NCBI RefSeq assembly: GCF_002744755.1 | Contig: NZ_KZ319289.1 | Coordinates: forward strand, 310,001-374,000 | From: Leeuwenhoekiella nanhaiensis | GTDB lineage: Bacteria; Bacteroidota; Bacteroidia; Flavobacteriales; Flavobacteriaceae | DNA length: 64,000 nucleotides | Direction of reading: 5' to 3' | Shown: piece after piece, positions 3,102-24,568 of the stretch | How positions within the stretch are numbered: position 1 is the stretch's first letter | How the letters are laid out: each line of letters starts with the position of its first letter | Notes under the pieces: model-generated | Database searches by the model: none | What the model was told of the DNA's origin: nothing | The model's input: the letters and a program-made list of their open reading frames with translations, nothing else | Program-made: the position numbers and the translations under genes

Positions 3102-4355
3102 ATGGACATCCCTTTAGAAAAGAAACGCTTTACCACTCAAAAAATACTGATGATCGCAGGCGGAATTGCCCTTGCAGGCCTGATCGTTTTTGTGATTCTT
3201 TCCACCACCGGAACGTCAAAGCTCAACGTTCAAAAAGAACGTCTGAGCATCGCAACAGTTAAGCAGGACGTGTTTCAGGAAAACATTCCGGTGAACGGGG
3301 TGGTGATGCCTATTACCACCATTTACCTCGATGCGCTTGAGGGCGGAAGGGTTGAAGAAAAGTTTGTGGAAGATGGCGCTGTGATGAAAAAAGGCGAACC
3401 CATTTTACGCCTGTCCAATACCGATCTCGAGCTGAGTCTGGTAAATCAGGAAACGCAGGTATACAATTTATTGACTCAAATGCAAATTTCGCAGAACGCC
3501 GCGCGCCAAAATACCATTGTAAAACTCAACCAGTACACCGATGTGGAGAACAGCCTTATTGAAGCGAAACGGGTGTACGAGCTCAACAAAAAGCTCTACA
3601 ACAAAGACGCGATCGCGCGTCAGGATTTGATCAAATCTGAAAATGAGTACAATTATCAGAAGGAGCGTATGCAGCTGGCCGGGCAGATTTTGGCTCAGGA
3701 TTCAATTGCGGTGAAGCAGGAGAAAAATCAGGTTTCCAGTTCGTATGAACGTACCCAGAACGCCTTAGAATTGATGCGTCGTAAAGTCGCAGATCTTGTG
3801 GTGCGGGCGCCGGTAGACGGGCAGCTTACTTCGCTTGATGCCGAAATAGGTCAGTCTAAAAACAAAGGCGAACGTCTGGGTCAGATAGACGTTTTGAGCG
3901 GATACAAAGTGCGCGTGGATATTGACGAGCACTATATTTCTCGAATCTATACCGGGCAAAAAGGCTCTTTTGATTTCGACGGAAAAAGCTACACACTGGT
4001 CATCAAAAAAGTCTTTACTCAGGTGACAAACGGAAGATTTCAGGTAGATATGGAATTTGAATCGGATGTGCCGGAAGGGATACGCCGCGGTCAAACCCTG
4101 CAAATACGGGTGGCGCTGAGTCAGGAAAAACAGGCTTTGCTCATCCCCAAAGGCGGGTTCTTTCAGGAAACCGGCGGCAACTGGATTTTTAAAGTGAGCG
4201 AAGACGGAAACACCGCCTATAAAGCAGACATTTCGCTGGGAAGCCAAAATACCGAGTATTACGAGGTTTTAAGCGGCCTTGAGCCGGGAGACCGCGTGAT
4301 CACCAGCAGTTACGATAATTATGATGAAGTGCAGGAACTGGTACTTCAGGATTAA
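3102..4355 (+). CDS. Periplasmic adaptor (membrane-fusion) protein, HlyD/MacA type
   Basis: From the ATG at 3102 the protein has 417 residues. A basic N-terminus (MDIPLEKKRFTTQK) precedes one membrane anchor (about 13-34). Next come a lipoyl-like half (VEEKFVEDGAVMKKGEPI), a long coiled-coil hairpin (about 95-210, rich in Gln, Lys and Glu), the returning lipoyl half (VVRAPVDGQLTSLDAEIGQ), a beta-barrel and a membrane-proximal domain. This is the standard adaptor layout that bridges inner-membrane MacB-type transporters and TolC. An in-frame ATG at 3051 would add 17 residues but overlaps the promoter-like element. It is the first gene of the operon, 55 bases before the first ATPase, and the only adaptor for seven permeases. 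Confidence 0.92.
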   Translation: MDIPLEKKRFTTQKILMIAGGIALAGLIVFVILSTTGTSKLNVQKERLSIATVKQDVFQENIPVNGVVMPITTIYLDALEGGRVEEKFVEDGAVMKKGEPILRLSNTDLELSLVNQETQVYNLLTQMQISQNAARQNTIVKLNQYTDVENSLIEAKRVYELNKKLYNKDAIARQDLIKSENEYNYQKERMQLAGQILAQDSIAVKQEKNQVSSSYERTQNALELMRRKVADLVVRAPVDGQLTSLDAEIGQSKNKGERLGQIDVLSGYKVRVDIDEHYISRIYTGQKGSFDFDGKSYTLVIKKVFTQVTNGRFQVDMEFESDVPEGIRRGQTLQIRVALSQEKQALLIPKGGFFQETGGNWIFKVSEDGNTAYKADISLGSQNTEYYEVLSGLEPGDRVITSSYDNYDEVQELVLQD

Positions 4356-4410
4356 ACCAGAACAAATGACAACACTAATCTTAGCATTTATAAACCTAAT
4401 CCTTTCTTAG

Positions 4411-5115
4411 ATGATCAAAATAACAGACTTAGAAAAGTATTACGCCACCGAAGAGGTGCGCACCATCGCCCTCAACAAACTGTCTTTTCAGGTGCAGGAA
4501 GGCGAATTTGTAGCCGTAATGGGACCTTCGGGCTGCGGTAAATCGACTTTGCTCAATATTCTTGGACTGCTGGACGACCCGGACGGCGGCAGCTTTATCT
4601 TCAACGGTATTGAAGTAGCCGGGTTTAACGAGCGCAAGCGGGCCGATCTGCGCAAGCACAACATCGGGTTTGTCTTTCAAAGCTTTAACCTGATTGACGA
4701 ACTTACGGTTTTTGAAAACGTGGAGCTTCCGTTGATTTACACCGGCGTAAAACCAGCCGAGCGAAAAAAGCGGGTAGACGAGGTGCTTGAAAAAATGCAA
4801 ATTATGCACCGCCGCAAGCACTTTCCGCAGCAATTATCAGGAGGGCAGCAGCAGCGTGTGGCCGTAGCCCGGGCCGTGGTTAACAATCCCAAACTCATTT
4901 TGGCCGATGAGCCTACCGGTAACCTGGACAGCAGCAACGGGAACGAGGTGATGGATTTGCTTACCGAACTCAACGAAGCCGGCACGACCATTATTATGGT
5001 AACGCACAGCGAGCACGACGCCAAGTACAGCCACCGCATCATCAGGATGCTAGACGGTCAGAAGGTCACCGAAAATGTACTCTCAGAATACAAAAGCAAA
5101 ACCTTAGAGGTTTAA
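4411..5115 (+). CDS. ABC transporter ATPase 1 (MacB/LolD type)
   Basis: The 234-residue nucleotide-binding protein has Walker A GPSGCGKST (38-46), the Q-loop region VFQSFNLIDELTV, signature LSGGQQQRVAVARA, Walker B LILADEP, D-loop GNLDS and H-loop VTHSEHD. All expected catalytic motifs are intact. This family powers FtsX-type permeases of the MacB, LolCDE and FtsEX group, which use ATP for mechanical work on periplasmic or outer-membrane substrates. It sits between the adaptor and the first permease. With the second ATPase at 22411 it brackets the permease array, so two ATPases appear to serve seven permeases. Confidence 0.95.
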   Translation: MIKITDLEKYYATEEVRTIALNKLSFQVQEGEFVAVMGPSGCGKSTLLNILGLLDDPDGGSFIFNGIEVAGFNERKRADLRKHNIGFVFQSFNLIDELTVFENVELPLIYTGVKPAERKKRVDEVLEKMQIMHRRKHFPQQLSGGQQQRVAVARAVVNNPKLILADEPTGNLDSSNGNEVMDLLTELNEAGTTIIMVTHSEHDAKYSHRIIRMLDGQKVTENVLSEYKSKTLEV

Positions 5116-5207
5116 GATTTCCTTACGGGGATTCATTCATCAATCGGCAGCAGCCGAAACAATCAATCAAAAACCGGGATTTCATCACTCCCAACATCTT
5201 ATCAGCT

Positions 5208-7565
5208 ATGCTTAAAAACTATTTCAAAATCGCCTTTAGAAACCTTTTGAAGAACAAGGGATACAGCGCACTCAATATTTTTGGCCTTGCCATAGGAATC
5301 ACCTGTGCCAGCTTCATTTTCTTATGGGTGGAAGATGAAATGAGTTATGATACCGTTGTTGCAGATCAGGAACGGGTGTACAGTGTGCCTACCAATCAGG
5401 TCTATGAAGGAAAAACCCGTACTTTTTTTACAGCTACTCCGGGGCCTTTAGCGGCAGATTTAAAGGCTGAGATTCCTGAGATAACTAAGGCAGCCCGCTT
5501 TCGTAATGCAGACTTTTTGTTTAGCGTTAATAATTCTTCAGTAATCAGTGCCGGTTCGTATGCCGATGCCGATTTTCTGGATCTGTACGACCTGAAATTT
5601 ATTGAGGGCAATGCATCCGAAGCATTTAAGAGTAAAGACGGAATCGTTATTACGCAGGAGTTGGCTCAAATTCTTTTTGAAAATCCAAACAATGTATACG
5701 GACAGCGTGTTCAGATTAATCAGAAGGAACATTTTAAAATAACCGGAGTAATTGAAAATCTTCCAAAAAATACCACTTACGGTTTTAGCTGGCTTGTACC
5801 TTTTGAAAACTTTACCCAGGATAAACCCTGGACTCAGGAGTACGGTAGCAAGTTTACAGACACCTTTGTGATGTTGGCACCGGGAGCCGATTTTAATACG
5901 GTCAATGCTAAAGTAAAGCAGCTGCTACCTTCAAAGACCGATGATTCAGAAACTCAGGCAATTCTACACGCTGCAAAAGACTGGCATCTCAGATCTGATT
6001 TCAAAAACGGAGAAGTGGTAGGCGGAAGAATAGAATACGTGCGCTTATTCAGTTTTGTGGCCCTGATCATCTTAATCATTGCCTGCATAAATTTTATGAA
6101 TTTATCAACTGCCAGAAGCGAGAAACGGGCTAACGAAGTAGGGGTTCGAAAAACCCTGGGCTCAGATAAAAAGCAGCTCATTTTTCAATTTATTACTGAA
6201 GCCTTGCTTACCGCACTATTGGCGGCGGTATTGAGTGTGTTTGTCCTGTTACTCCTCATACCGGCTTTTAATGGGCTTATAGGAAAACAGCTTTCATTAG
6301 GTCTTACAGTACCCTCACATTTAATTTCATTATTAGGAATAACGCTTACCTGCGGGATTTTGGCAGGCATTTATCCGGCATTTTACCTCTCTTCCTTCAA
6401 ACCTATAGCTGTTTTAAAAGGCAATCGCATACAGGCTAAAGGAGCCGGTTTTGTGCGGAAGGGGCTTGTGATAACCCAGTTTGCGGTTTCTATTGTTTTC
6501 ATCATCAGTACACTTTTGGTTTATCAGCAGGTGCAGCACGTAAAAAATCGGGATCTGGGCTTAAATAAAGAAAACCTGATTGAAATACCGGTAAATGGGG
6601 ATTTGATTAAAAACAGAAATGCGATAGCTGAAAGCCTAAAGAATACAGGGACGGTAAGCAGTTTGGGTCTGTCTAATTCAAACCTAATGTCTGCCGGTAA
6701 TAACGGTTCAGGTTTGAGATGGCAGGGAGGAACCGATACAGAAGATGTTTTGGTTTCTTTCAGATATGTAACGGATGGCTATTTAGAAACGACCGGGATT
6801 AAGATTCTTGAAGGCCGTGGTTTCAGCACCAGTGTGGCACAAGACAGCACGCGTGTACTCATCACCGAATCATTTGCAAAACTGATGGGAACAGGCAGTG
6901 CACTTGGCAAAACCATAGACTGGTTTGGCGATACCGTTACCGTTGTTGGAGTGACTAATAATTATTTATATGGTGATATGTATGGCACCAGTGATCCGGT
7001 TATGTTTTTCAACTTTCCGTCTGAGGCGCAATATATGTATCTGAGAACCAACCCCAACTACCCGGCAGATGAAATCCTGAGTACTGTAGAGCAGACTCTC
7101 AAAACCTACAACCCGGGTTATCCCTTTGAATACGAGTTTGTAGATGCCGCGTTTGACCGTCGGTTTAAAAACGAACAGTTGATGGGTTCGTTATCCCAAA
7201 TTTTTGCCGCGCTTTCCATTTTGATATCCTGCCTGGGTCTGTTTGGACTTTCGGCCTATACCGCACAGCAACGCCGTAAGGAAATAGGAGTGCGCAAAGT
7301 GTTAGGCTCGAGTGTTGCCGGTATTGTGCGCCTCCTGTCAAAAGATTTTATAGTGCTGGTACTGATTGCCATTGTAGTTGCAGTGCCGCTCGCCTGGTAC
7401 ATTATGCACAATTGGTTGCAGGGATTTGCGTACCGCATATCGATTAATGTCTGGGTATTTGTTTTTGCCGGTATTGCAGCTATAGGGATTGCCCTGTTAA
7501 CCGTAAGCTTTCAGGCTGTAAAAGCGGCCATCGCCAACCCGGTAAAATCGCTAAGAATGGAATAA
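5208..7565 (+). CDS. Double-FtsX ABC permease P1 (MacB_PCD-FtsX, two copies)
   Basis: The 785-residue protein is two fused MacB-like halves. Half one has TM1 (19-41, in YSALNIFGLAIGITCAS), a periplasmic domain (about 45-275) and three membrane segments (about 280-300, 325-350, 373-394). Half two has TM5 (418-437), a second periplasmic domain (about 440-655) and three further segments (663-683, 714-733, 748-768). Each half has the cytoplasmic ATPase-contact motif after its second segment: EVGVRKTLG (about 310) and EIGVRKVLG (about 690). The chain ends NPVKSLRME, a tail shared by all seven paralogues. One chain may act as the equivalent of a MacB dimer. Substrate unknown. Confidence 0.93.
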   Translation: MLKNYFKIAFRNLLKNKGYSALNIFGLAIGITCASFIFLWVEDEMSYDTVVADQERVYSVPTNQVYEGKTRTFFTATPGPLAADLKAEIPEITKAARFRNADFLFSVNNSSVISAGSYADADFLDLYDLKFIEGNASEAFKSKDGIVITQELAQILFENPNNVYGQRVQINQKEHFKITGVIENLPKNTTYGFSWLVPFENFTQDKPWTQEYGSKFTDTFVMLAPGADFNTVNAKVKQLLPSKTDDSETQAILHAAKDWHLRSDFKNGEVVGGRIEYVRLFSFVALIILIIACINFMNLSTARSEKRANEVGVRKTLGSDKKQLIFQFITEALLTALLAAVLSVFVLLLLIPAFNGLIGKQLSLGLTVPSHLISLLGITLTCGILAGIYPAFYLSSFKPIAVLKGNRIQAKGAGFVRKGLVITQFAVSIVFIISTLLVYQQVQHVKNRDLGLNKENLIEIPVNGDLIKNRNAIAESLKNTGTVSSLGLSNSNLMSAGNNGSGLRWQGGTDTEDVLVSFRYVTDGYLETTGIKILEGRGFSTSVAQDSTRVLITESFAKLMGTGSALGKTIDWFGDTVTVVGVTNNYLYGDMYGTSDPVMFFNFPSEAQYMYLRTNPNYPADEILSTVEQTLKTYNPGYPFEYEFVDAAFDRRFKNEQLMGSLSQIFAALSILISCLGLFGLSAYTAQQRRKEIGVRKVLGSSVAGIVRLLSKDFIVLVLIAIVVAVPLAWYIMHNWLQGFAYRISINVWVFVFAGIAAIGIALLTVSFQAVKAAIANPVKSLRME

Positions 7566-7617
7566 AGCTCCCTGGCCCCAAAGGAATAATGAATAACAAT
7601 AATAATAGCAATAGATT
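7566..7617 (+). repeat. Intergenic leader repeat S1 (P1-P2 spacer)
   Basis: The 52-base spacer has a C-rich run with a short purine partner (CTCCCTGGCCCCAAAGG) followed by an AAT/AAC/AGC triplet tract ending in GCAATAG just before the ATG. The same two-part layout recurs in the later spacers S2, S4, S5 and S6. Confidence 0.7.
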
Positions 7618-10014
7618 ATGCTTAGAAACTATTTCAAAATCGCCTGGCGGAACTTACTTAAGCACAAAGGATATTCGGCTATCAACATCTTTGGTCTAGC
7701 ACTGGGGATGGCGGTAACGCTTATGATAGGTCTTTGGGTCGCAGATGAGCTTAATTTTAACGCCTATTATAAAAATAAGGATCGCATTGCCCAGGTGTAC
7801 CAAACCCAAACCTACAATGGGGAGATCGGTACAGGAACAGCTATTCCCAGACCGCTTGAGTTTGTACTGAGGCAAGAATATGCCGATAATTTTGAGCGTA
7901 TTGTGATGGCTTCCTGGGAGCAACCCATGACCTTACGGGTAGGTGATAAAGTAATCGGTCAAACCGGCATAAGCATCCAGGAAGAAGCCCCTCAAATGTT
8001 GGATTTGCAGATCACGCAGGGCGAGCAAAATCCGTTAAAGGAACAAAATGCCGTGATGATCTCACAGTCCTGTGCCAAAGCGCTTTTTGGTACTGAAAAA
8101 GCTTTGGGTAAAATAATCAATGTAAACGATCGGGATGATATGATGGTCACCGCGGTTTATGAGGATATTCCTAAAAACAACTCGTTTCATTCCATCAACT
8201 TTTTTCTGCCGTGGAAACATTATATAACCACAGCACACTGGTTAAAAAACGCTGCAGATCAGTGGGGTAATAATTCCTTTCAGCTTTTTGTACAATTAAA
8301 AGAGAATGCTGATTTAGCAGGTGTTTCTCAGGCTATCGCAAACATAAAGCACAACAAAGATGCAAACGAGGCGCAATTTGAGCCCAAGTTATTTCTTTGG
8401 CCAATGGAAAAATGGCATCTGTATTCCCGGTTTAAAAATGGAGTGCCTAGTGGAGGCCGAATAGAAAACGTATGGCTTTTTGGTATCATTGGGACTTTCG
8501 TATTATTACTGGCCTGCATCAACTTTATGAATCTGAGCACCGCACGCTCTGAAAAACGCGCGATGGAGGTAGGCATACGCAAAACCATAGGTTCGACGAA
8601 AAATCAACTCGTCAGGCAGTTTCTTGTAGAATCCCTCTTAGTCGTGTTCTTTGCTTTCGCTCTTGCAATGGGTTTGGTGTTACTATTCTTAAATGCGTTT
8701 AACGATCTGGCCAGTAAAGCGATAGATTTTCCCTGGTCAAGTCCTGTTTTTTGGGTGACGGCTTTAGTTTTTATTACACTTACTGCATTGATTTCAGGCA
8801 GTTATCCTGCTCTCTACTTATCTGCCTTCAGACCTATAAAAGTATTGAAGGGAACATTTAAAGCCGGAAAAATGGCTGCCTTACCTCGAAAGGTATTGGT
8901 AGTAACTCAATTCAGCGTTTCAATCGCTCTGATAATTGGGACGCTTATTGTAATGTCTCAGATCGAATTCAGCAAAAACAGACCGATAGGTTATCAAACG
9001 GAAGGGTTGATTCAAATTCCAGTAATGAGTTATGAATTCGTAGGAAAAGATGATTTTATGCGTCAGCAGTTTTTAGCCTCGGGAGCAGTGATGGAGATGG
9101 CTACTTCTAGCAGTCCCAGTACAGATATTTGGTCTCATAGAAGTGGCTACAATTGGGAAAGTAAACCTGAAGAATTTCAGGAAGAATTCGCCTATACCGA
9201 GGTTTCTTATGAATACGTGGAGACGTTGGGACTGAAAGTTGTGGACGGGCGGGGTTTTTCAAGAGAATTTGCTACAGATTCCAGCGCAATTCTTCTTAAT
9301 GAAGCTGCAGTTAAATATATGGGATTAAAAAATCCTGTGGGCGAAATCATCCGTCAGGGAAGTGAGGAAAACCCAACACTTTTACGTGTGATAGGCGTTG
9401 TGGAAGATGCGGTTGTACAGTCACCCTATGAACCGGTGAAGCAGGCTATCTATGTGTTTGATCGTTATGGCAATGCCAGCTATTGGAATTTGCGCTTGAA
9501 CCCGGATCAAAGTGCGGGTGAAAATTTGGCGCAGATTGAAGAGGTGTTTACCCGTAATTTTCCCAACTCTCCATTTACCTACGATTTTGTTGATCAGGAA
9601 TATGCTCAAAAATTTGACGAGGAAGAGCGCATTGCCAGTCTGGCAAAAGTATTTACAGTACTTGCTATTCTCATAAGTTGTCTGGGGCTGTTTGGTCTGG
9701 CCTCTTTTGTGGCAGAGCAGCGCACTAAAGAAATCGGCGTACGCAAAGTTTTGGGTGCTTCGGTAGCTAACCTGTGGTTGCTACTTTCTAAGGATTTTGT
9801 AATGCTGGTCGTCATGGCCATTCTTGTTGCATCGCCAGTAGCTTTCTACCTGATGCAGCAATGGGTTCAAAAGTTCTCCTATCGAACCGATATTTCACTC
9901 TGGATATTTATAGCTGCAGCATTTGGAGCTATGTCAATAACCCTGATTACGGTAAGCTTTCAGGCCATTAAAGCTGCAATCGCCAACCCCGTAAAATCAT
10001 TGAGAAACGAATAA
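7618..10014 (+). CDS. Double-FtsX ABC permease P2
   Basis: The 798-residue paralogue of P1 has the same eight-segment layout. It opens MLRNYFKIAWRNLLKHKGYS, with TM1 at about 19-41 and TM2 at about 285-306 (VLLLACINFMNLS). Contact motifs are EVGIRKTIG (about 316) and EIGVRKVLG (about 704), and the C-terminus is NPVKSLRNE. The membrane and contact regions are close to P1, while the two periplasmic domains (about 45-280 and 445-675) have clearly different sequences. That pattern suggests a shared motor interface with divergent periplasmic contacts. It lies 52 bases after P1 and 56 bases before P3 in the same operon. Confidence 0.93.
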   Translation: MLRNYFKIAWRNLLKHKGYSAINIFGLALGMAVTLMIGLWVADELNFNAYYKNKDRIAQVYQTQTYNGEIGTGTAIPRPLEFVLRQEYADNFERIVMASWEQPMTLRVGDKVIGQTGISIQEEAPQMLDLQITQGEQNPLKEQNAVMISQSCAKALFGTEKALGKIINVNDRDDMMVTAVYEDIPKNNSFHSINFFLPWKHYITTAHWLKNAADQWGNNSFQLFVQLKENADLAGVSQAIANIKHNKDANEAQFEPKLFLWPMEKWHLYSRFKNGVPSGGRIENVWLFGIIGTFVLLLACINFMNLSTARSEKRAMEVGIRKTIGSTKNQLVRQFLVESLLVVFFAFALAMGLVLLFLNAFNDLASKAIDFPWSSPVFWVTALVFITLTALISGSYPALYLSAFRPIKVLKGTFKAGKMAALPRKVLVVTQFSVSIALIIGTLIVMSQIEFSKNRPIGYQTEGLIQIPVMSYEFVGKDDFMRQQFLASGAVMEMATSSSPSTDIWSHRSGYNWESKPEEFQEEFAYTEVSYEYVETLGLKVVDGRGFSREFATDSSAILLNEAAVKYMGLKNPVGEIIRQGSEENPTLLRVIGVVEDAVVQSPYEPVKQAIYVFDRYGNASYWNLRLNPDQSAGENLAQIEEVFTRNFPNSPFTYDFVDQEYAQKFDEEERIASLAKVFTVLAILISCLGLFGLASFVAEQRTKEIGVRKVLGASVANLWLLLSKDFVMLVVMAILVASPVAFYLMQQWVQKFSYRTDISLWIFIAAAFGAMSITLITVSFQAIKAAIANPVKSLRNE

Positions 10015-10070
10015 TCCCCTAACCCTAAAAGGGGGAATGAATAGCAATAACAATAATAATAGCAATAATC
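10015..10070 (+). repeat. Intergenic leader repeat S2 (P2-P3 spacer)
   Basis: The dyad CCCCTAACCCTAAAAGGGG can pair its CCCCT and AGGGG ends. It is followed by the longest class of AAT/AAC/AGC triplet tract, ending AATAATC before the ATG. Confidence 0.75.
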
Positions 10071-12458
10071 ATGCTTAGAAATTATATCAAAATCGCCTTT
10101 AGAAACCTTTGGAAAAACAAGGGGTATTCGTTTTTAAACATCAGCGGTCTAGCCATTGGGATGACTGCCGGGTTTCTGATTTTGCTGTATGTCGCCTTCG
10201 AACTGAGCTACGACCAGATGTATCCTGAAAAAGACCGCATTCACAGGCTGGTGAGTACTATCAAAACACCTTCTGACGAGTACAATATCGCGATTATAGA
10301 CTGGACGGTTCTTAATAAAATAAGTCCGCAGTTTCCTGAAATTGAAACTTCCACCCGTGTTTTTGATATCAATCTGAATATGCAAAAAGGCACCGAAACG
10401 GTACGAGAGCAAAACGTTTTGGCTGTTGACTCTACGTTTCTCAACATTTTTGGCGTAGAACTTTTACGCGGAAATGCTACCGAAGCCTTACGGGCGCCGT
10501 TGAGTCTTGTTTTGAGCGAAAGCGCGGTGCAGAAATATTTTGGCGATCAGGATCCTTTGGGAAAAACCCTGAAGATCATGAACGGTAAATACACCGCTCA
10601 GGTCACCGGAATTATGCCTGCGCTGCCCGAAAACTCCCAGATTAAGGCAGATATGTTGCTTTCAATTTCCAGCTACACTCAGGTTTTTTCACCTGATATT
10701 GATGAATCCTGGGCAGATTACGAACCTCGTGGATATCTGCTGCTTCGCGAAAACACCGATGCAAAAGCTTTAGTGCCTAAAATCAATGCCTATGTAAAAG
10801 AGATTGACGGCGCTAAAATGGAGGCTGCGCAATTGTATATCAGTCACGACCTGGAGCCGGTTGATGAGGTGTATCTCTATTCCGAACGAAACCGTAAAAA
10901 ACAGGGGCATATCACCAATGTGTATGTTTTCAGTCTTGTGGCCTTGTTTATCCTGCTTATCGCGGGGATCAATTTTGTAAATCTCACTACCGCACGCTCT
11001 GTAGAACGCGCAAAAGAAGTAGGCGTACGTAAAGTAATCGGGGCTCAGAAACAGCAATTGTCCTTTCAGTTCTTAAGCGAGTCGCTAATGATCAGCCTTT
11101 TGGCATTTGTACTGGCACTGGGGCTTACCGCTTTGGCCTTGCCCTATTTTAATAGTTTGGCCGGAAAGGAGATCGCCACCGGAATCTTTAACGATTTTAC
11201 CTATATCGCTTTACTCTTCGGCCTTGCGGTGCTTATAGGTTTGCTGGCGGGGGTGTATCCGGCGCTGGTATTGTCTTCATTTAAACCCGTTCAGGTGCTT
11301 AAAGGCAGGTTTACTGCTACCCGAAACGGTGCGATTTTGAGAAAAGGGCTTGTTGTGGTTCAATTTGCGGTTTCCATCCTGCTTATAATAGGTACGCTGG
11401 TGATTTACAATCAGACGCGTTTTATGCAGAATTACGATTTAGGTTTTGCCAAAGACCGCCTGCTGATTCTCGATACCCAATCGGCCGCCGGCCGTGATGT
11501 TTTGCAACAACAGCTTGCCGGAAATCCCAATATTCTATCCGTAAGCCGGGCATCGTCGGTTCCCGGTGGCGGAGGTGATAACAGTTCGGCATTATCAACC
11601 ATATCAAACAGTGAGGGGAACGATCAAACCTTAACGGTAGACCGGTATGTAATCGACGACCGGTATCTGGACCAACTGGATATCAAACTGCTTGCCGGGC
11701 GTAATTTTGACCGTAATCTGGCTCAGGACAGCGTTTCGGCCATGATCGTTAATGAGCGCATTACTCAAATGCTGGGTTTTGTAAATCCCGAGGATGCTCT
11801 GGGGGCTTCGTTTAGCCAATGGGGGCGAAAAGGAGAGATCGTAGGAGTTACTCAAAATTTCCACACCAGCTCTCTGCAACAGAATGTGGGTCCGCTTTCT
11901 TTCGTATTTGATCCGGAACAATCCCGATTACTAACCGTGAAAGTTGCTGCCGGAACTATCAACCAAACTCTTGATTTTATAGAAGATTCCTGGCAACGTG
12001 CCCTGCCCGAAATTCCGTTTGACTACTATTTTCTCGACGAATTTTTTGACCGGCAATACCGCGCCGAGCGGCAATTTGGCAAACTGTTTCTCAATTTCTC
12101 GATGCTCGCGATTTTTATCTCGTGTCTGGGACTTTTAGGACTGGCGGCTTACAGTATGTTGCAACGCAAACGCGAAATAGGAATACGAAAGATCGTTGGT
12201 GCCAGTGTATTTAGCATCGTAAACCTCGTTTCTGCTGAATTTATCAAGTTAGTAGGTATTGCCTTTGTAATCGCGGCACCCATTGCCTGGTTTGCGATGC
12301 ATAGTTGGCTGGAAGGCTTTGCCTATCGCATCAGCCTATCGTGGTATCTATTTGCCGGAGCAGGAGTTCTGGTCATTGGCATTGCCCTGTTAACCGTAAG
12401 TATACAGGCGATTCGGGCAGCAGTGGCAAATCCTGTAAAATCCTTAAGAACTGAATAG
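10071..12458 (+). CDS. Double-FtsX ABC permease P3
   Basis: The 795-residue paralogue opens MLRNYIKIAFRNLWKNKGYS, with TM1 at about 19-43. Contact motifs are EVGVRKVIG (about 316) and EIGIRKIVG (about 702), and the C-terminus is NPVKSLRTE. Its second periplasmic domain includes a short Gly/Ser-rich stretch (VPGGGGDNSSA) not seen in P1 or P2. In the second half LQRKREIGIRK replaces the more usual QQRxKEIGVRK. The spacer to P4 is only 25 bases and lacks the C/G-rich dyad, so P3 and P4 are probably the most tightly coupled pair. Confidence 0.93.
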   Translation: MLRNYIKIAFRNLWKNKGYSFLNISGLAIGMTAGFLILLYVAFELSYDQMYPEKDRIHRLVSTIKTPSDEYNIAIIDWTVLNKISPQFPEIETSTRVFDINLNMQKGTETVREQNVLAVDSTFLNIFGVELLRGNATEALRAPLSLVLSESAVQKYFGDQDPLGKTLKIMNGKYTAQVTGIMPALPENSQIKADMLLSISSYTQVFSPDIDESWADYEPRGYLLLRENTDAKALVPKINAYVKEIDGAKMEAAQLYISHDLEPVDEVYLYSERNRKKQGHITNVYVFSLVALFILLIAGINFVNLTTARSVERAKEVGVRKVIGAQKQQLSFQFLSESLMISLLAFVLALGLTALALPYFNSLAGKEIATGIFNDFTYIALLFGLAVLIGLLAGVYPALVLSSFKPVQVLKGRFTATRNGAILRKGLVVVQFAVSILLIIGTLVIYNQTRFMQNYDLGFAKDRLLILDTQSAAGRDVLQQQLAGNPNILSVSRASSVPGGGGDNSSALSTISNSEGNDQTLTVDRYVIDDRYLDQLDIKLLAGRNFDRNLAQDSVSAMIVNERITQMLGFVNPEDALGASFSQWGRKGEIVGVTQNFHTSSLQQNVGPLSFVFDPEQSRLLTVKVAAGTINQTLDFIEDSWQRALPEIPFDYYFLDEFFDRQYRAERQFGKLFLNFSMLAIFISCLGLLGLAAYSMLQRKREIGIRKIVGASVFSIVNLVSAEFIKLVGIAFVIAAPIAWFAMHSWLEGFAYRISLSWYLFAGAGVLVIGIALLTVSIQAIRAAVANPVKSLRTE

Positions 12459-17414: not shown

Positions 17415-17471
17415 GTCCCTGGCCTCCTAGGTGGGAATGGATAACAATAACAATAATAATAGCAATAGATC
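17415..17471 (+). repeat. Intergenic leader repeat S5 (P5-P6 spacer)
   Basis: A TCCC...GGGA dyad encloses CCTAGG, followed by a long AAT/AAC/AGC tract ending AATAGATC. The last 20 or so bases are nearly identical to the matching part of S1. Confidence 0.75.
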
Positions 17472-19916
17472 ATGTTAAAGAACTACATAAAAATCGCCTG
17501 GCGGAATATCTGGAACAATAAATTGTTTTCATTCATAAACGTCATCAGTCTGGCCATCGGGTTTAGCGCATCTTTTGTGATCGGCCTGATGGTATATTAT
17601 GATTTTACTTTTGATAAATTTCATAAGGATGGGGATCGTATTTACCGCGCAACCACCCAATTTATAAGTCCTGAAGGAACCGATCATTTCAATGGTGTAA
17701 ACGCCCTGTTGGCCGATGCTTTAAAACAAGATGTGAGCGGTCTTGAAAATGTGAGTGCTTTTTATACGTACCGCCCTTTAAAAGTGGAAGTCGAAAGCCG
17801 TGACTTGGTCTTCAAAAAGCCTAACCATGTTATTTTTACAGATAGTGATTATTTTAAGGTGATTGACTATAACTGGTTAGCAGGTAATAAGGCAACCAGT
17901 CTGCTTGAGCCAAACGAGGTGGTGCTGACGCAGCAGCGCGCCGAAAGCTACTTCCCCAACACACCAGTAGAAAATCTTATTGGGAAAATCCTGATGTATA
18001 ACGACTCTATCCCTGCAAAAATCACGGGTGTTGTAGCCAATTTTGAGGAGCGTAGCGATTTTGTTTTTCAGGAATTTATCTCGTTGCCCACCGCCTTGCA
18101 ATCTGATCTTAAATCAATGGTGACTAATACGATCTGGGATAGTTATAACTCAGATGCGCAGGTACTGTTTAAAACTCTTCCCGGAGTCGCCGGTAATACC
18201 ATTCAGGAGCAGTTAGATAACCTGAGTAAGTCTCGCGCTGATAAAGACGACCTGGCAGACGGAGAGTGGTCCCGTTTTTATGCACAGCCTTTAGAGGAAC
18301 TGCATTTTGATACGCGCTACGGCACCTTTGACTATAGCGTTCCGCAGGCGAGTAAAAAGGTACTTTTGAATCTGGGCATTGTAGCCTTGTTTCTCCTGCT
18401 TTTAGGCAGCATCAACTTTATCAATTTAACGACAGCTCAGGCGACACAACGGGCACGCGAAATAGGTATTCGCAAGACGCTGGGTAGTTCAAAAAAGCAA
18501 CTGATCTTTCAATTCTTAGGCGAAACCTTTCTGCTTACCCTATTGTCTGCACTGGTGTCTGTTGTTCTAGCTTTCTGGTTGCTGCGTGTTTTTGCAGGAT
18601 TTATTCCGTCGGGATTAAATTTCGGACTTTTTGCAAACCCCTGGATTATTACTGCTATGCTGGTCTTATTGGTGGTGGTTACACTCTTGTCCGGTATGTA
18701 TCCGGCCTTTGTACTTTCCGGATTTAAACCCGTTTCGGTGTTAAAGAACAGGCTTAGCTCGCAAACCTCTGCGACCGGTTTTAGAAAGGGACTTACCGTT
18801 TTTCAGTTTGTAGTTGCTCAGGTTTTTATAATCGGGACTTTGTTGGTGGGCAAGCAAATAGATTACCTGATGCATAAAGACATAGGTGTCAATACAGCTA
18901 ATATCGCATATGTCAAACTTCCGTGGAATGATGCTGCGATCACAAAAAAGAAGCTTTTAAAAAATAAACTGGCTACGATTCCGGAACTCTCTACAATCAG
19001 CCTGGGCGGGGCACCCCCGGCGTCAATGTACATCAATTCAAATCTTGTGGAATTCAGCAAAGATGGCGAAACTATTGAAGTGTTGCAGGAACAGCGATTT
19101 GGTGATGCGACGTATTTTGATCTGTATGGACTAGAACTGCTGGCGGGCCGAAAACCCATTAACGACACGATTAAAGAATATGTGATCAACGAAACCATGC
19201 TGCATAAACTGGGCTTTACAGCACCTGAAGAAGCGGTGGGCCAGCAATTGCTGATGGGATCTAAGAGCTATCCCATTGTTGGCGTTATGCGTGATTTTAA
19301 TGAAAAGCCTTTGAACTCTGACATCCAGCCGGTCGTATTTGTGGGTGATATTTACCGGGACTGGTTTTCCCAATTCAATATGCTTCATTTTAAGATTGAG
19401 CCGAAAACTCAAGACCTGGCAGGTACTCTTGAGAAGGTAGAAGATATTTGGAAATCGGTTTATCCGGATTCAGATTTTGAGATCCAGTTTATGGACGAAA
19501 CAGTAGCTAATTTTTACAGGTCGCAGCAGCGCACCCAGAAACTGTTGAACTGGGCGACTGGTCTTGCTATTTTAATAAGCGCTTTAGGCCTGCTGGCTCT
19601 GGTGATCTATACCACCGAACGTCGTATTAAAGAGATCGGCATCCGCAAAGTGCTGGGCGCTTCATTAATGGAGCTACAAGTCCTGCTGTGCAAAGATTTT
19701 CTGAAACTCATAGCTATAGCTTTTGTGATTGCTGCTCCCATCGCTTACTGGCGAATGCATATATGGCTGGAAGACTTTGCCTACAAAACCGAAATGAGCT
19801 GGTGGGTTTTCGCCCTAAGCGGCATCGGAATGGTTGTGCTTGCCCTGGCGATAATGAGTTTTAAAACATTGAGAACTGCGATGAGAAATCCCGTAAAATC
19901 TTTAAGAACTGAATAA
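17472..19916 (+). CDS. Double-FtsX ABC permease P6
   Basis: The 814-residue paralogue opens MLKNYIKIAWRNIWNNKLFS, with TM1 at about 19-43. Contact motifs are EIGIRKTLG (about 330) and EIGIRKVLG (about 721), and the C-terminus is NPVKSLRTE. The TM6-TM7 region is more divergent than in P1-P5 (SALGLLALVIYTTERRIKE instead of SCLGLFGL...AQQRxKE), and the last basic stretch reads KTLRTAMRNPVK. The periplasmic domains have their own sequences. It lies 64 bases before P7. Confidence 0.93.
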   Translation: MLKNYIKIAWRNIWNNKLFSFINVISLAIGFSASFVIGLMVYYDFTFDKFHKDGDRIYRATTQFISPEGTDHFNGVNALLADALKQDVSGLENVSAFYTYRPLKVEVESRDLVFKKPNHVIFTDSDYFKVIDYNWLAGNKATSLLEPNEVVLTQQRAESYFPNTPVENLIGKILMYNDSIPAKITGVVANFEERSDFVFQEFISLPTALQSDLKSMVTNTIWDSYNSDAQVLFKTLPGVAGNTIQEQLDNLSKSRADKDDLADGEWSRFYAQPLEELHFDTRYGTFDYSVPQASKKVLLNLGIVALFLLLLGSINFINLTTAQATQRAREIGIRKTLGSSKKQLIFQFLGETFLLTLLSALVSVVLAFWLLRVFAGFIPSGLNFGLFANPWIITAMLVLLVVVTLLSGMYPAFVLSGFKPVSVLKNRLSSQTSATGFRKGLTVFQFVVAQVFIIGTLLVGKQIDYLMHKDIGVNTANIAYVKLPWNDAAITKKKLLKNKLATIPELSTISLGGAPPASMYINSNLVEFSKDGETIEVLQEQRFGDATYFDLYGLELLAGRKPINDTIKEYVINETMLHKLGFTAPEEAVGQQLLMGSKSYPIVGVMRDFNEKPLNSDIQPVVFVGDIYRDWFSQFNMLHFKIEPKTQDLAGTLEKVEDIWKSVYPDSDFEIQFMDETVANFYRSQQRTQKLLNWATGLAILISALGLLALVIYTTERRIKEIGIRKVLGASLMELQVLLCKDFLKLIAIAFVIAAPIAYWRMHIWLEDFAYKTEMSWWVFALSGIGMVVLALAIMSFKTLRTAMRNPVKSLRTE

Positions 19917-19980
19917 GCCCTAGCCATCTAACCCTTAAATGGGGAGTTAATGGCAATAACAATAATAATCGCAATAGATA
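19917..19980 (+). repeat. Intergenic leader repeat S6 (P6-P7 spacer)
   Basis: At 64 bases this is the longest spacer. It contains ACCC-TTAAAT-GGGG within a C-rich to G-rich layout. The triplet tract that follows carries one CGC in place of AGC and ends CAATAGATA before the ATG. Confidence 0.7.
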
Positions 19981-22377
19981 ATGTTAAAGAACTATATAAA
20001 AATCGCCTGGCGGAATCTGCTAAAGAATAAACTCTCCGGCTTTATTACCATCGGTGGGCTGGCTGTAGGGCTTACCGCCTGCACGCTAATTCTGTTTTAT
20101 GTAGCGCACGAGCGCAGTTACGACAGCTTTCATACAGATTCTGATCGTATTTATACGGTGGAGGCTCAGGTAAATATGGGCGGAGATAGCATTTATATGA
20201 ACTCGATGAATGCCACGGTTGGAAAGCTCACCGAAAATGCGAGTCCGGCGGTTTCTAGCAGCCTGCGTCTAAAGGAAGAATACAAGCCGGTAATCATCAC
20301 CAATGCGAGCCAGCCGGGCACGCGATTTTCGGAAAAAGATTTCAGCTATGCCGATGCGAATTTCTTTGACTTCTTTTCATTTAGATTGAAAAAAGGCAAC
20401 ACGGCAACTGTTTTAAGCAAGCCCTATTCGCTGGTGCTTAGCGAGGATATGGCCAAAAAGTATTTTGGTAACCAAAGTCCTATTGGCGAAACACTATCAG
20501 TGCGAAAGGACAGCACCTACCTGTTTACCGTCACCGGTGTGATGGAAAATACACCTAGCAATTCCAGCTTACACCCCGACTTTGTAGCATCGCTGAGCAG
20601 TATGCCAACCATAAAAGAGTTTGAGAGGGATTTTGATTCGGAAGCCTTTAGATTAGGTTCTTTCCCTACGTACTTAAAGTTGAATGAATCTGCAGATAAA
20701 AGTGCAGTCGAAAAAACGATGCAGGAACTCAGTATTCAAGGCAATGCAGAGGCTTCTGATGTTTACAGCCTGAGTCTGTTAAGGGATAAACATTTAAACG
20801 GAAGAGACGCTTCAAACACCAGGTACATCAGTATTTTTCCGTTGATAGCGGTGCTAATTCTGTTGCTTGCCTTAGTCAATTATTTGAGTTTATCAACAGC
20901 ACGTGCCACCTTGCGTTCTAAAGAAATCGGTGTGCGTAAAGTAAATGGTGCCAGCAGAAAAAGTGTGGCGTTGCAGTTTTATGTGGAATCTACCCTTTAT
21001 GTAATCTTTGCGTTTCTGGTTTCGGTAGCCCTTAGTGTAGTTTTAAAACCCTGGTTTTTTAGCCTTCTGGACATTGAGATTGACGCTTCCTTTTTCCTTA
21101 ATAAAAACTTCCTCCTGATCCTTACAGGTCTGTTAGGCTTCACCGTTTTGGCAACCGGTTTTTACCCGGCATTGGTGATGTCTGCCTTCAATCCTGTTGA
21201 GAACCTGAGAAGCAGCAGGACTTCAAAAATGGGAGGAGAACGCTTACGTAAGGTTTGTACTACCGTCCAGTTTGTCATTGCGATTGCCCTTTTAATAAGC
21301 GGTGTTATCATCCATCAGCAATTGGATTATGTGCGCGGGGTGGATACCGGTCTTAACCGTTCTGACGTAGTTATGGTAACGCTGCAGAATACCGTGGGGA
21401 CTAACAGTACTCCTTTTAGAAATGAGATCGAAAAGCTCTCACAGGTAACCAGCACCGCAGTAGCTCAATATCCTATTTACAAAGGGTATAATATGTTTTT
21501 TGCGTCTTCAGAACAAGTGCCTGATGCTACGGGTCTGCCCATATTTTCGGTAGATGATGATTTCTTTAAAACCCTGGGTGTAACCTGGGAAACAAAGCCG
21601 GATGACGAAAATTTCTATTCTAAAAGCGATCCGGTGATTATTAACGAAGCGGCAATCAGCAAATTTAAACTGGGACCAAATCCTATAGGAGAAAGTCTGC
21701 TTTTTGGAAACAGTAAAAGAGAAATTGTTGGTGTAGTTAAGGATTTCCATTTTGAAAATCTGGATGCGCCCATAAATGCAGTGGCTTTGTTTGTGAATCC
21801 AAAAACCAAAGCAACCACAAATATTCTGGGCAAAAATGGCGGTTGTTTATTTGTGCGTTTTCAGCCCGATAGTAACGTACCCCAATTGCTTTCAAAAATG
21901 GAAACGATCTATACCCAATACGATTCTGCTACTCCTTTTGAATACCAGTTTCTGGATGACGCGTTTGACGCGATGTTTCGTTCCGAAGAACGCTTATCAC
22001 ACGTGTTTAACCTGTTTATCATTCTGGCGATGCTGATTGCCGGTATGGGGCTTTTTGCCCTGGCAACCTTCAGCGCACAGCAGCGTATGAAAGAGCTGGG
22101 AGTTCGTAAAGTTCTGGGCGCATCGGTGTTGCAGCTTACCACCTTACTTTCTTTTGATTTTCTTAAACTGATTTTGCTGGCTATTCTGGTCGCCTCACCG
22201 CTCGCGTGGTATTTTATGCACGAGTGGCTTCAGGACTTTAATTATAAAACAACTATACACTGGTGGGTTTTTGCTGGTGCAGGCGTTGGCGCTTTTGTCC
22301 TTGCCATTTTTACGGTAAGTTTTCAAGCCATTAAGGCGGCATTGGCAAACCCCGTAGAATCCTTAAGAACCGAATAA
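19981..22377 (+). CDS. Double-FtsX ABC permease P7
   Basis: The 798-residue paralogue opens MLKNYIKIAWRNLLKNKLSG. It is the most divergent of the set. TM1 reads ITIGGLAVGLTACTLILFYV. The first contact motif is EIGVRKVNG (about 314), with Asn where the others have Leu, Ile or Val; the second is ELGVRKVLG (about 704). TM2 ends ALVNYLSLSTARA instead of INFMNLSTARS. The C-terminus is NPVESLRTE. It is last in the permease array, and the second ATPase follows after 33 bases. Confidence 0.92.
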   Translation: MLKNYIKIAWRNLLKNKLSGFITIGGLAVGLTACTLILFYVAHERSYDSFHTDSDRIYTVEAQVNMGGDSIYMNSMNATVGKLTENASPAVSSSLRLKEEYKPVIITNASQPGTRFSEKDFSYADANFFDFFSFRLKKGNTATVLSKPYSLVLSEDMAKKYFGNQSPIGETLSVRKDSTYLFTVTGVMENTPSNSSLHPDFVASLSSMPTIKEFERDFDSEAFRLGSFPTYLKLNESADKSAVEKTMQELSIQGNAEASDVYSLSLLRDKHLNGRDASNTRYISIFPLIAVLILLLALVNYLSLSTARATLRSKEIGVRKVNGASRKSVALQFYVESTLYVIFAFLVSVALSVVLKPWFFSLLDIEIDASFFLNKNFLLILTGLLGFTVLATGFYPALVMSAFNPVENLRSSRTSKMGGERLRKVCTTVQFVIAIALLISGVIIHQQLDYVRGVDTGLNRSDVVMVTLQNTVGTNSTPFRNEIEKLSQVTSTAVAQYPIYKGYNMFFASSEQVPDATGLPIFSVDDDFFKTLGVTWETKPDDENFYSKSDPVIINEAAISKFKLGPNPIGESLLFGNSKREIVGVVKDFHFENLDAPINAVALFVNPKTKATTNILGKNGGCLFVRFQPDSNVPQLLSKMETIYTQYDSATPFEYQFLDDAFDAMFRSEERLSHVFNLFIILAMLIAGMGLFALATFSAQQRMKELGVRKVLGASVLQLTTLLSFDFLKLILLAILVASPLAWYFMHEWLQDFNYKTTIHWWVFAGAGVGAFVLAIFTVSFQAIKAALANPVESLRTE

Positions 22378-22410: not shown

Positions 22411-23088
22411 ATGCTCTTACAACTCAATCATATTTATAAATGGGTCAAACAAGGCGGCAAACGCGTCTTTTTACTAAATGACATCAGTCTTGATGTCGAA
22501 GAAGGCGAGTTCATCTCCATTATGGGTCCTTCAGGTTCCGGGAAGTCGACTTTACTCAACGTCATCGGGATGCTTGACGAATTTCAGGAAGGGGAATACA
22601 TTTTTGATGGCGAACCGGTGCATAGCCTTAAGGAAAAGCAACGTGCAAAACTCTATAAAGAATACATCGGTTTTGTGTTTCAGGCGTATCACCTCATCGA
22701 CGAGTTGACCGTTTATGAAAACATTGAAACCCCGCTTTTGTACAAGAATATCAAGTCTTCCGAACGTAAAGCTTTGGTAGCCGATATGCTCGACCGCTTT
22801 AATATTGTGGGCAAAAAAGACCTGTTTCCGGCGCAGCTGAGTGGCGGGCAGCAGCAACTGGTAGGCATCGCCCGGGCACTAATTGCAAAGCCCAAACTTA
22901 TTTTGGCAGATGAACCCACCGGAAATCTAAACTCGAAGCAGGGCGAAGAAATCATGGAACTCTTTAAGGAGCTCAATACCGAAGGGGTCACCATCATCCA
23001 GGCGACGCACTCGGAGTCTAACGCGGCTTACGGTAATCGCATCATTCACCTGCTTGACGGGAGTAAACAGCTTCAACCCCAGAATTAA
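22411..23088 (+). CDS. ABC transporter ATPase 2 (MacB/LolD type, altered signature and D-loop)
   Basis: The 225-residue paralogue of the ATPase at 4411 has Walker A GPSGSGKST (39-47), Q-loop region VFQAYHLIDELTV, Walker B LILADEP and H-loop ATHSESN. Two positions differ from ATPase 1. The signature reads LSGGQQQLVGIARA, with Leu where LSGGQQQR is usual. The D-loop reads GNLNS where GNLDS is usual. Walker B Glu is kept, so it may still hydrolyse ATP, but asymmetric pairing with ATPase 1 is conceivable. It follows P7, and the TolC-like gene starts 64 bases later. Confidence 0.94.
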   Translation: MLLQLNHIYKWVKQGGKRVFLLNDISLDVEEGEFISIMGPSGSGKSTLLNVIGMLDEFQEGEYIFDGEPVHSLKEKQRAKLYKEYIGFVFQAYHLIDELTVYENIETPLLYKNIKSSERKALVADMLDRFNIVGKKDLFPAQLSGGQQQLVGIARALIAKPKLILADEPTGNLNSKQGEEIMELFKELNTEGVTIIQATHSESNAAYGNRIIHLLDGSKQLQPQN

Positions 23089-23152
23089 AATAACACGAGG
23101 GACTCATCAACCCGATAGTTTAAAAACATACAAACACATCAATCAAAAGAAT

Positions 23153-24568
23153 ATGAAAATTCCATTCGCAGGCTTGTTAGCGGCCTGGCTGTTTACGATC
23201 TGCACTATGCAGGCACAGGAAACGCTTACACTTGAGGATTGCATCGAGATTGCTTTGGCCCAAAACTTCAGTGTACAACAGGCGGAGATCAATGCACAGG
23301 GCGAAAGCATTCAGTATAAACAAAGCCGAAACGCACTTTTGCCAAGGATAAATGCCGATTACAACTATGGCGTGAGCAATGGCCGAAGCATTGACCCCTT
23401 TACCAATGCCTATGTGACCGAGCAGCTTAACTTCTCTAATGTAGGACTCAGTCTAAGTACCACCGTATTTAATGGGTTTAGATTGCTCAACAGCCTGAAG
23501 CAAAGCAGTCTCAACAAGGCCGCTGCCGGGATGGAAGTGGAAGAAGCCCGCCAAAACCGAATGCTTGATGTTACGCTGAGCTTTTTGCAGGTTTTGAATG
23601 CCCGCGAACTCGTAAAACTGGCCGAAACCCGCTTACTTACTACCCGCGAACAGCTCAAACGGCTGGAGAAACTCAACGAAGAGGAGAGCGGCAATCCTTC
23701 TGATTTTTACGATTTGAGAGGTCAGCTTGCATTGGATCAAAATGCCATTATAGATGCCAAAAACAGTCTGAATAACGCGCTTGAAGAGCTCAAGTTTCTG
23801 CTGAATACCGATGCCGAAATAGAGGCGGAAAGTCTGGCTTTAATAACCGAATTTAAAAATCAGGAGCTGTCTGCCGAAGGAATCTATGAGCAGGCTTTGC
23901 AAAATCTGGCTGCAATCAAAGCCCGTGAACTCAGGCTGGAAGCTGCCGAAAAAGGAGTGGCTGTCGCCCGCTCGCAGTACGTGCCTGAAATCAGTTTATT
24001 TGCCAATCTGAATACCAACTACTCGAGTGCTGCACGCCTGTTTGAAGAGACCGGAACAGAGCTTTTAGAAACTACAGATTTTGTAAGCATTTCGGGAATC
24101 GACTACAATGTCTTTACTCAGGAAACCCGGTTTAATTCCCGCGGGATATCGTATATAGATCAGTTAAACAACAACCTCAATTCTACCATCGGAGTTAGCG
24201 TGAGTATTCCGTTGTTTAACGGGTTTCGGGCCAAAAACAATGTGCAACTACAAAAAGTAGAACAGAGCAGGGCTGAGGTAGCTTTGGCAGAAACCAAACG
24301 CGCGCTGAAGCAAAACATCACGCAGGCCTATAACGACTGGGATGCAGCGGCTACGAGCTATGAGTTGCTACAGGAACAGGTCGTGGCTTATGAAAAGTCG
24401 TTTGCGATCAACGAAGCCCGTTTTAATCTGGGTGTGGCCACCAGTGTTGAATACATCACCAGCAAAAACCGGCTCGACAACGCCCGAATCAATTTAACCA
24501 ACACCCGCTATACCTACCTGCTGCGGGATAAGGTGCTGGAGTTTTATAAGGGTAGGGTGATTAGATAA
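23153..24568 (+). CDS. TolC-family outer-membrane channel protein
   Basis: From the ATG at 23153 the protein has 471 residues, with a signal peptide (MKIPFAGLLAAWLFTICTMQAQ). Two outer-membrane-efflux repeats follow: the first starts LTLEDCIEIALAQNFSVQQAE, and a matching second half has the beta segment SIPLFNGFRAKNNVQLQK. STTVFNGFRLLNSLKQS in the first half is the internal counterpart. Long Glu, Ala and Gln-rich helices between them fit the TolC helical barrel. An in-frame ATG at 23054 overlaps the ATPase gene and lacks a signal peptide directly after it, so the later start is preferred. It completes a tripartite export system with the adaptor at 3102. Confidence 0.93.
   Translation: MKIPFAGLLAAWLFTICTMQAQETLTLEDCIEIALAQNFSVQQAEINAQGESIQYKQSRNALLPRINADYNYGVSNGRSIDPFTNAYVTEQLNFSNVGLSLSTTVFNGFRLLNSLKQSSLNKAAAGMEVEEARQNRMLDVTLSFLQVLNARELVKLAETRLLTTREQLKRLEKLNEEESGNPSDFYDLRGQLALDQNAIIDAKNSLNNALEELKFLLNTDAEIEAESLALITEFKNQELSAEGIYEQALQNLAAIKARELRLEAAEKGVAVARSQYVPEISLFANLNTNYSSAARLFEETGTELLETTDFVSISGIDYNVFTQETRFNSRGISYIDQLNNNLNSTIGVSVSIPLFNGFRAKNNVQLQKVEQSRAEVALAETKRALKQNITQAYNDWDAAATSYELLQEQVVAYEKSFAINEARFNLGVATSVEYITSKNRLDNARINLTNTRYTYLLRDKVLEFYKGRVIR

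Follow-up and report, generated by a model that had tools for sequence, protein, structure and literature searches.

Gene content and organization of the array

The locus described here lies in a 64-kb stretch of the genome of Leeuwenhoekiella nanhaiensis (contig NZ_KZ319289.1), hereafter the window, whose positions are used as coordinates throughout. Genes for an adaptor, two ATPases (N1 and N2), seven permeases and a TolC-like channel span positions 3102–24568, as follows:

3102..4355, +, periplasmic adaptor, HlyD/RND_mfp (RND_mfp above cut-off)
4411..5115, +, N1, ATPase with canonical motifs (family search, motif alignment)
5208..7565, +, permease 1, class A, 785 residues (MacB_PCD and FtsX; structure model)
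7618..10014, +, permease 2, class B, 798 residues (MacB_PCD and FtsX)
10071..12458, +, permease 3, class C, 795 residues (MacB_PCD and FtsX)
12484..14955, +, permease 4, class D, 823 residues (MacB_PCD and FtsX)
15003..17414, +, permease 5, class E, 803 residues (MacB_PCD and FtsX)
17472..19916, +, permease 6, class F, 814 residues (MacB_PCD and FtsX)
19981..22377, +, permease 7, class G, 798 residues (MacB_PCD and FtsX)
22411..23088, +, N2, ATPase in which Leu replaces Arg after LSGGQQQ and Asn replaces the D-loop Asp (motif alignment)
23153..24568, +, TolC-like outer-membrane channel (OEP above Pfam cut-off)

Every frame of the eleven genes was open and on the same strand. A preliminary description of this DNA had reported seven consecutive permeases of 785–823 residues between two ATPases, with an adaptor ahead and a TolC-like gene behind on one strand, and both the reading frames and the family searches confirmed it. 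The longest open reading frame (ORF) of the adaptor opens at 3051; the ATG at 3102 was preferred because the promoter-like element at 3057–3072 and the relatives favour it. The longest ORF of the TolC-like gene runs from 23054, with a likely start at 23153 and its end at 24568. With the preferred starts, the spacers from the adaptor through the TolC-like gene were 55, 92, 52, 56, 25, 47, 57, 64, 33 and 64 bases; they are mostly under 65 bases, as had been stated, the exception being the 92 bases between N1 and permease 1. All parts of the array belong to known families.

Permease architecture

MacB_PCD and FtsX domains were detected above the Pfam cut-offs in all seven permeases, with two stretches of each per permease, except for a single MacB_PCD stretch in permease 3. 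Permeases 2–7 were 31–39% identical to permease 1 and aligned with it over the full length, and identity among the window paralogues was 21–23% in the periplasmic domains versus 52–57% in the coupling helices.

The AlphaFold model of permease 1 (predicted local distance difference test 93.9, predicted template modelling score 0.90) was obtained with an alignment of 117 rows, the seven window permeases plus 110 taken at random from 179 diverse ones. It contained eight transmembrane (TM) helices (residues 17–45, 275–304, 321–358, 369–395, 413–446, 654–688, 703–737 and 748–775) and no additional helix pair linking the halves. The short helices 308–316 and 690–698, which sit between TM helices 2/3 and 6/7, were read as coupling helices, and two mixed domains (about 46–274 and 447–653) are probably periplasmic, by analogy with MacB. 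Permeases 2–7 showed eight hydrophobic peaks at corresponding places; in permease 1 one peak was split. The best solved Foldseek match of the model was Escherichia coli YbbP (9ge6_A, E 1.3e-19, template modelling score 0.48), MacB was second and Bce structures were among the weaker matches; by sequence, the closest solved relative was MacB.

According to the model, permease 1 is a complete pseudo-dimer of 4+4 helices, that is, one full pair of transmembrane domains. Since its two halves each contribute four helices, a MacB-type extracytoplasmic domain and a coupling helix, one permease chain should equal a MacB dimer, and it should suffice per transporter core because two ATPases bind one pseudo-symmetric YbbP, as reported in excerpts of the YbbAP study (PMC12646458). 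The two MacB-like halves reported for each permease agree with the doubled domain matches, apart from the single MacB_PCD stretch in permease 3, and with the structure modelled for permease 1. The preliminary description had offered interchangeable parts and pseudo-dimers as alternatives; the two are not rivals, because the single 8-helix chain modelled already is a complete transmembrane-domain pair. It is improbable that several permeases assemble jointly into a larger complex: they co-occur in one operon, but in the model one chain already has two complete halves, and the set size ranges from 2 to 14.

Both coupling helices were half-specific and alike across 361 permeases, helix 1 being closer to other helix 1s and helix 2 to other helix 2s (150/150 each way in the sample). 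With these helices alike while membership and order vary around near-fixed shared genes, the permeases do look interchangeable on common hardware, as had been suggested.

The ratio of nonsynonymous to synonymous substitutions (dN/dS) was 0.05–0.15 for six of the seven window permeases, dS values above 1 being rough and that of permease 3 saturated; by this measure the six computable permeases are under purifying selection. A pseudogene array in the window was rejected, as all seven frames are intact and dN/dS is low in the six. Silent pseudogenes, whose presence in relatives the preliminary description had named as evidence against its proposal, are absent from the window and sporadic elsewhere: the class F permease has an in-frame stop in three relatives coded G004, G007 and G009 (L006:7384-9828, L012:7346-9796 and L014:10300-12420; G denotes genomes and L loci), and in a few other loci permeases are in pieces.

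The two ATPases

N1 and N2 formed separate clades, each represented in Leeuwenhoekiella, Gelidibacter, Dyadobacter and Mucilaginibacter, among others. Profiles of both were built from the loci of the G genomes, and motifs were counted in 143 sequences, 10 of the 153 ATPase ORFs being omitted for scores below 230 bits. The Arg three residues after LSGGQ and the D-loop Asp were present in 73/73 N1 sequences and in 0/70 N2 sequences, in which the D-loop residue was Asn (37), His (30), Gln (2) or Tyr (1). The Leu of N2 is biased in 37 of the 70 because the search pattern included it; the D-loop lay outside the pattern, and of the 33 found without it, 30 have the Leu and none the Asp. The N2 sequences that were aligned retain Walker A, the Walker B Glu and the H-loop His.

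These are two ATPases with consistently different motifs, as for a heterodimeric ABC (ATP-binding cassette) pair with unequal sites. Excerpts of work on the transporter TAP report that the D-loop Asp touches the partner subunit around Walker A, and that changing it in one subunit turns the pump into a gated facilitator (PMC4242082). In unequal exporters, tolerance to D-loop changes is reported to differ between the two subunits, with no effect in ABCG5/G8 (PMC7756269, in part). These cases suggest, by analogy, that N2 is built for pairing with N1, and an N1-N2 heterodimer appears somewhat the more probable arrangement.

The N2-signature DNA pattern gave one match each in 38 of 296 Bacteroidota genomes, and its reversed control matched in 3. 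The 38 are an undercount, because an N2-like ATPase was held by 6 of 20 pattern-negative genomes (the 20 fetched out of 48 that were N1-positive and pattern-negative). N1 was present in 37 of the 38 N2 genomes (E ≤ 1e-88) versus 85 of the 296 overall; in G330, N2 was present and N1 was not found at E 1e-75. In nine genomes N2 had at most one permease directly before it and the N1 locus, which was fetched, lay elsewhere. Seven of these (G164, G223, G184, G231, G310, G286 and G227) had the adaptor (membrane fusion protein) and N1 followed by 2–5 permeases; G312 had one permease beside N1, and in G087 the adaptor and N1 were followed by ORFs of 265–376 residues, in which no permease was recognised.

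Several observations weigh against an obligatory pair. In G013 and G023, the locus combined N1 with permeases of classes M and B but lacked N2, a search of its gap for an N2 remnant giving nothing in G013 and only chance-level matches in G023, and other N1 loci had no N2 inside the fetched stretch. N2 is hence not an obligatory partner of N1. The two coupling helices were no less distinct from each other in 16 permeases whose loci lack N2, and their asymmetry was dropped as support for the heterodimer.

It is rather unlikely, though not negligibly so, that the operon instead holds two transporter sets, with N1 homodimers and N2 homodimers driving different permeases, or with N2 as an auxiliary tied to the TolC gene. 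The N1 loci without N2, the genomes in which N2 and TolC sit apart from the adaptor and N1, and the motifs retained by N2 favour such sets. The coupling helices, however, vary by half and not by permease kind, N2 is almost confined to N1 genomes, and an N2 homodimer without the D-loop Asp would have two altered sites.

In L226 (G261), L231 (G296), L222 (G089) and L223 (G077), N1 and N2 were adjacent and ahead of the permeases, not bracketing them.

Distribution in Bacteroidota

In the window genome the double-permease profile gave 7 matches at E 1e-20, all inside the array. Twelve genomes of the same genus gave 4, 7, 7, 6, 8, 7, 8, 0, 11, 4, 6 and 14, counts that include a few partial matches or matches outside the array; in G008, with zero, the adaptor was likewise not found at E 1e-40. 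Of the loci of relatives, 80 of 96 were kept. The complete layout from kinase to N2 was found in Gelidibacter (L037) and Dyadobacter tibetensis (L069), and the same layout, cut by the fetched flank, in Cryomorpha (L033), Segetibacter (L047) and Mucilaginibacter (L097, L103).

With the window's own locus excluded, 19 of 37 mapped N2 loci had N1, 2–14 permeases and N2 in a single run; the G177 stretch opens at N1, G114 has two other ORFs among the permeases, and the last permease of G092 is split in two. The array is not a chance assembly, since the arrangement recurs within the genus and across the phylum. The comparison of copy number that the preliminary description had proposed thus gives 0–14 profile matches within the genus and 2–14 permeases between N1 and N2 in Bacteroidota.

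Double permeases, some in rows, were also seen on contigs of metagenome-assembled genomes labelled Armatimonadetes, Aminicenantes and Kapaibacterium (L102, L063, L086, L045).

Permease classes and turnover

A class tree was built for 93 permeases of at least 650 residues from 16 genomes. The relatives of the same genus include L. aestuarii (G003), L. polynyae (G009), L. marinoflava (G005) and a Leeuwenhoekiella metagenome-assembled genome (G002); L027–L030 were omitted, being on the same contigs as G003, G009, G005 and G002. At 45% identity, 26 clusters were obtained, 13 of them with more than one member. In the nine classes with at least 5 members, mean identity within the class was 63–79%, and the closest member of another class was at most 44% identical. 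The order is A-B-C-D-E-F-G in the window, A-D-B-H-E-F-G in L. aestuarii, ?-A-B-K-D-J-H-E-F-G-? in L. polynyae and J-A-H-B in G001.

The window paralogues were at most 39% identical to each other, versus 55–65% to their counterparts in loci outside Leeuwenhoekiella; in other arrays a few neighbouring permeases were closer to each other, up to 67% (G137, G177). Among 347 permeases (of 354 with at least 740 residues), 341 had their nearest relative in another genus group or locus and not in their own array; the best match may be a congener, because each group outside Leeuwenhoekiella consists, in this count, of one locus or genome. All 82 Leeuwenhoekiella permeases were closer to loci outside the genus than to their own array. 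By these comparisons the permeases are old orthologous classes and not recent duplicates.

A recent tandem duplication that raised gene dosage through redundant copies was accordingly rejected and is very improbable. The layout of the array and the similarity of gene starts, ends and spacers speak for it; the low identity of the window paralogues and the 341 nearest relatives outside the own array speak against it, the remaining 6 of 347 being closest to a member of their own array. Gene starts and ends were alike in DNA (74% and 70%, versus 26% for the internal control), in part because protein ends are conserved, and spacers resembled each other within a genome to a degree reached in none of 1000 label shuffles. 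The likeness of the spacers does not prove that the junctions recombined, because the genome has their AAT-rich motif at other places too (31 matches at ≤ 3 mismatches, control 4; all 3 exact ones in the array). By eye, the spacers 7566–7617, 10015–10070, 14956–15002, 17415–17471 and 19917–19980 contain inverted repeats of a C-run and a G-run, followed by AAT-rich stretches.

Between L. aestuarii and L. polynyae, the adaptor, N1, N2, regulator and TolC proteins were 97–100% identical and classes A, D, F, G and H 94–97%, but class B was 65% and class E 58% identical, as replacement of single permeases would give. Three points temper this. The same pattern could arise from hidden paralogy followed by differential loss; permeases diverge faster in general (52–86% between the window and L. 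aestuarii versus 89–100% for the shared parts), so that the replacement reading rests on classes standing out within one pair; and the relatives compared are not independent. Between the window and G004, dS was 0.20–0.93 for the four shared intact permease classes and 0.22–0.52 for four shared genes.

Regulation

Ahead of the array lie a divergent two-component pair and, between the regulator and adaptor genes, three sequence elements:

215..1558, -, sensor histidine kinase with HATPase_c, two close TM segments and a near-zero loop (family search and hydropathy)
1548..2894, -, sigma-54-activating response regulator, REC-AAA+-Fis helix-turn-helix, divergent from the array (family search)
2966..2982, +, palindromic site 1, TGTATC-N5-CGNACA, putative regulator-binding (pattern comparison)
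2988..3004, +, palindromic site 2, 22 bp downstream of site 1, putative regulator-binding (pattern comparison)
3057..3072, +, sigma-54-like -24/-12 element TTGGCACAGTATTGCT, GG-N9-GC (pattern comparison)

The kinase and response regulator belong to the array system. One sigma-54 gene match was found in the genome, and a gene for a sigma-54 activator is adjacent to the array. In 39 loci compared over the region between the regulator and adaptor genes, a palindrome-like site was present in 37 (0.31 expected from shuffles), paired at 21–22 bp in 27 of these, and a sigma-like element, TGGCA[CT]-N4-6-TTG, in 28 (0.32 expected). In the 4.37 Mb genome the exact palindrome occurred twice, both times ahead of the adaptor gene. 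This exclusive position, in a scan that would miss variant sites elsewhere, suggests a regulator dedicated to the array operon.

Two points count against this promoter assignment. Both motifs were derived from the same regions in which they were counted, so the expectations are a guide only. The consensus spacing of sigma-54 elements is GG-N10-GC, one base longer than in the window element, and a strict scan for that form found it in 3 of 39 regions versus 1.26 expected; the canonical form was left without support, and the relaxed element was used instead.

Internal promoters and terminators were sought in the array: promoter-like sites numbered 32, versus 34.3 in shuffles, and terminator-like ones 29, versus 22.1 (standard deviation 5.7). 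The only conserved regulatory signature detected was that ahead of the adaptor gene, and the array is probably co-transcribed. Separate promoters for each permease, the other observation named as damaging to the preliminary proposal, were not seen, promoter-like sites being at the shuffled level.

Sigma-54 control has been predicted for FtsX-like permeases of COG0577, enriched in Bacteroidia among others (PMC12316311); the permease array, paired palindromes and ATPase pair are not described in the excerpts of that account.

By hydropathy, the kinase in the window and in the listed relatives has two close TM segments and is almost loop-free. Its matches to AtoS/ZraS-like models were below the cut-off, and a region that appears PAS-like by eye had no Pfam match. 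In BceAB-BceS, an FtsX-type permease is located near a kinase without a sensor loop, and transport or binding by the permease signals to the kinase. The array kinase resembles BceS in lacking, on hydropathy, a periplasmic sensor loop; the array differs in its sigma-54 regulator, adaptor, TolC and many permeases. It is unlikely, although compatible with the exporter reading, that the permeases are mainly sensors whose transport or binding signals to the loop-less kinase and thence to the sigma-54 regulator. The kinase topology, the confinement of the exact palindrome to the adaptor promoter and the Bce structures among the weaker Foldseek matches are in its favour, but with its PAS-like region the kinase may sense in the cytoplasm, and the adaptor and TolC point to export.

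A second signalling pair is linked to the locus, consisting of a TPR histidine kinase and a small regulator after the TolC gene (26044–28664, with one minus-strand gene between). In G010 (L016:14911-17579) such a pair directly follows the TolC gene.

Comparison with known systems

The array resembles MacAB-TolC in its adaptor, in its MacB-type permease halves with periplasmic domains and in its TolC-like channel, and differs in having separate ATPases of two kinds and seven double-length 8-helix permeases; in MacB the ATPase is reported to be fused to a 4-helix half (PMC5985334, in part). In YbbAP, according to the excerpted report, two ATPase copies dock the two coupling helices of a pseudo-symmetric YbbP, which works with TesA, has an extra linking helix pair and is served by one ATPase species (PMC12646458). 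The model of permease 1 shares the single-chain pseudo-dimeric fold, but the array combines 4+4 helices, two ATPase species, an adaptor and a channel, and its permeases scored at most 32 bits with the YbbP model NF041854 (cut-off 999). The Vibrio cholerae VarACDEF is a MacB-like tripartite pump whose ATPase is separate from its two permease subunits; it differs, as far as the excerpts describe it, by two 4-helix permeases, one ATPase and LysR-type control (PMC5595328).

ADOP, the 'acidobacterial duplicated orphan permease' (TIGR03434), was the best NCBIfam match of all seven permeases (242–343 bits); they fell below its cut-off of 622.3 bits, and here they are accompanied by ATPases and an adaptor. 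The darobactin cluster has one permease and one ATPase. Its exporter gave the best NCBIfam matches of N1 and N2 (DarD) and of the adaptor (DarC), and the permeases matched DarB, all below the equivalog cut-offs (NF038007, NF038008, NF038010): 298 for N1 and 251 for N2 versus 375, 88–170 for the permeases versus 700, and 182 for the adaptor versus 450. No biosynthetic family was matched among the 18 ORFs of 215–30699, a scan that did not cover small ORFs.

In the literature searched, which left out most subscription journals and bioRxiv preprints, no such array was described. The nearest account gives 28 and 33 duplicated orphan permease copies per genome in two Dyadobacter strains, by RAST annotation (PMC11573002, in part).

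Proposed mechanism

We favour, with a probability of about 0.6, a MacAB-TolC-like (type VII ABC) exporter in which alternative transmembrane bodies work on a shared, probably heterodimeric N1-N2 pair; the membrane bodies are likely interchangeable. The sequence comparisons and the model establish which genes are present, their recurrence, the permease classes, the differing ATPase motifs and the fold of one permease; we infer the export direction, the sharing of parts, the binding of the regulator and the substrate role of the variable periplasmic domains. Each permease in turn would engage that one N1-N2 pair through its two coupling helices, take up its substrate in the inner membrane or periplasm and hand it to the adaptor and TolC-like channel that all permeases share; specificity presumably lies in the divergent periplasmic domains. 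In the heterodimer, the canonical ATP site would be formed by the Walker motifs of N2 facing the signature and D-loop of N1, and the altered site by the Walker motifs of N1 facing the signature and D-loop of N2. The adjacent kinase and sigma-54 regulator would switch on the operon through the sites ahead of the adaptor gene. In evolution, permease genes may have behaved as cassettes that are acquired, lost, relocated and replaced around near-fixed shared parts.

A fuller version, which we hold tentatively and at somewhat less than even odds, is a combinatorial exporter: a fixed chassis of adaptor, channel, asymmetric N1-N2 pair and sigma-54 control would serve a library of ancient single-chain permeases that undergoes recombination; every permease would have a substrate of its own and might also report to the kinase they share. 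The preliminary description did not include the asymmetry of N1 and N2, the probably dedicated regulator and its sites or the apparent exchange of permeases.

In ABC exporters, an ATPase set normally serves a single membrane body. A chassis with many bodies would be a natural experiment on substrate recognition in type VII transporters, with near-constant coupling surfaces and variable periplasmic domains, and the fixed residue differences between N1 and N2 offer a clear test of unequal ATP sites in a MacB-family transporter. If the cassettes export or expel compounds of rivals, the permeases in a strain's array would document its chemical ecology in readable form.

Neighbouring genes

Beyond the second signalling pair, an HSDR_N-like protein is encoded at 28770–29816 (+); a search for further restriction genes was not made. 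A protein of 2818 residues with laminin-G-like domains and a Por_Secre_tail sorting domain is encoded at 33002–41458 (-) and adjoins a tail-collar-domain protein at 41471–42346.

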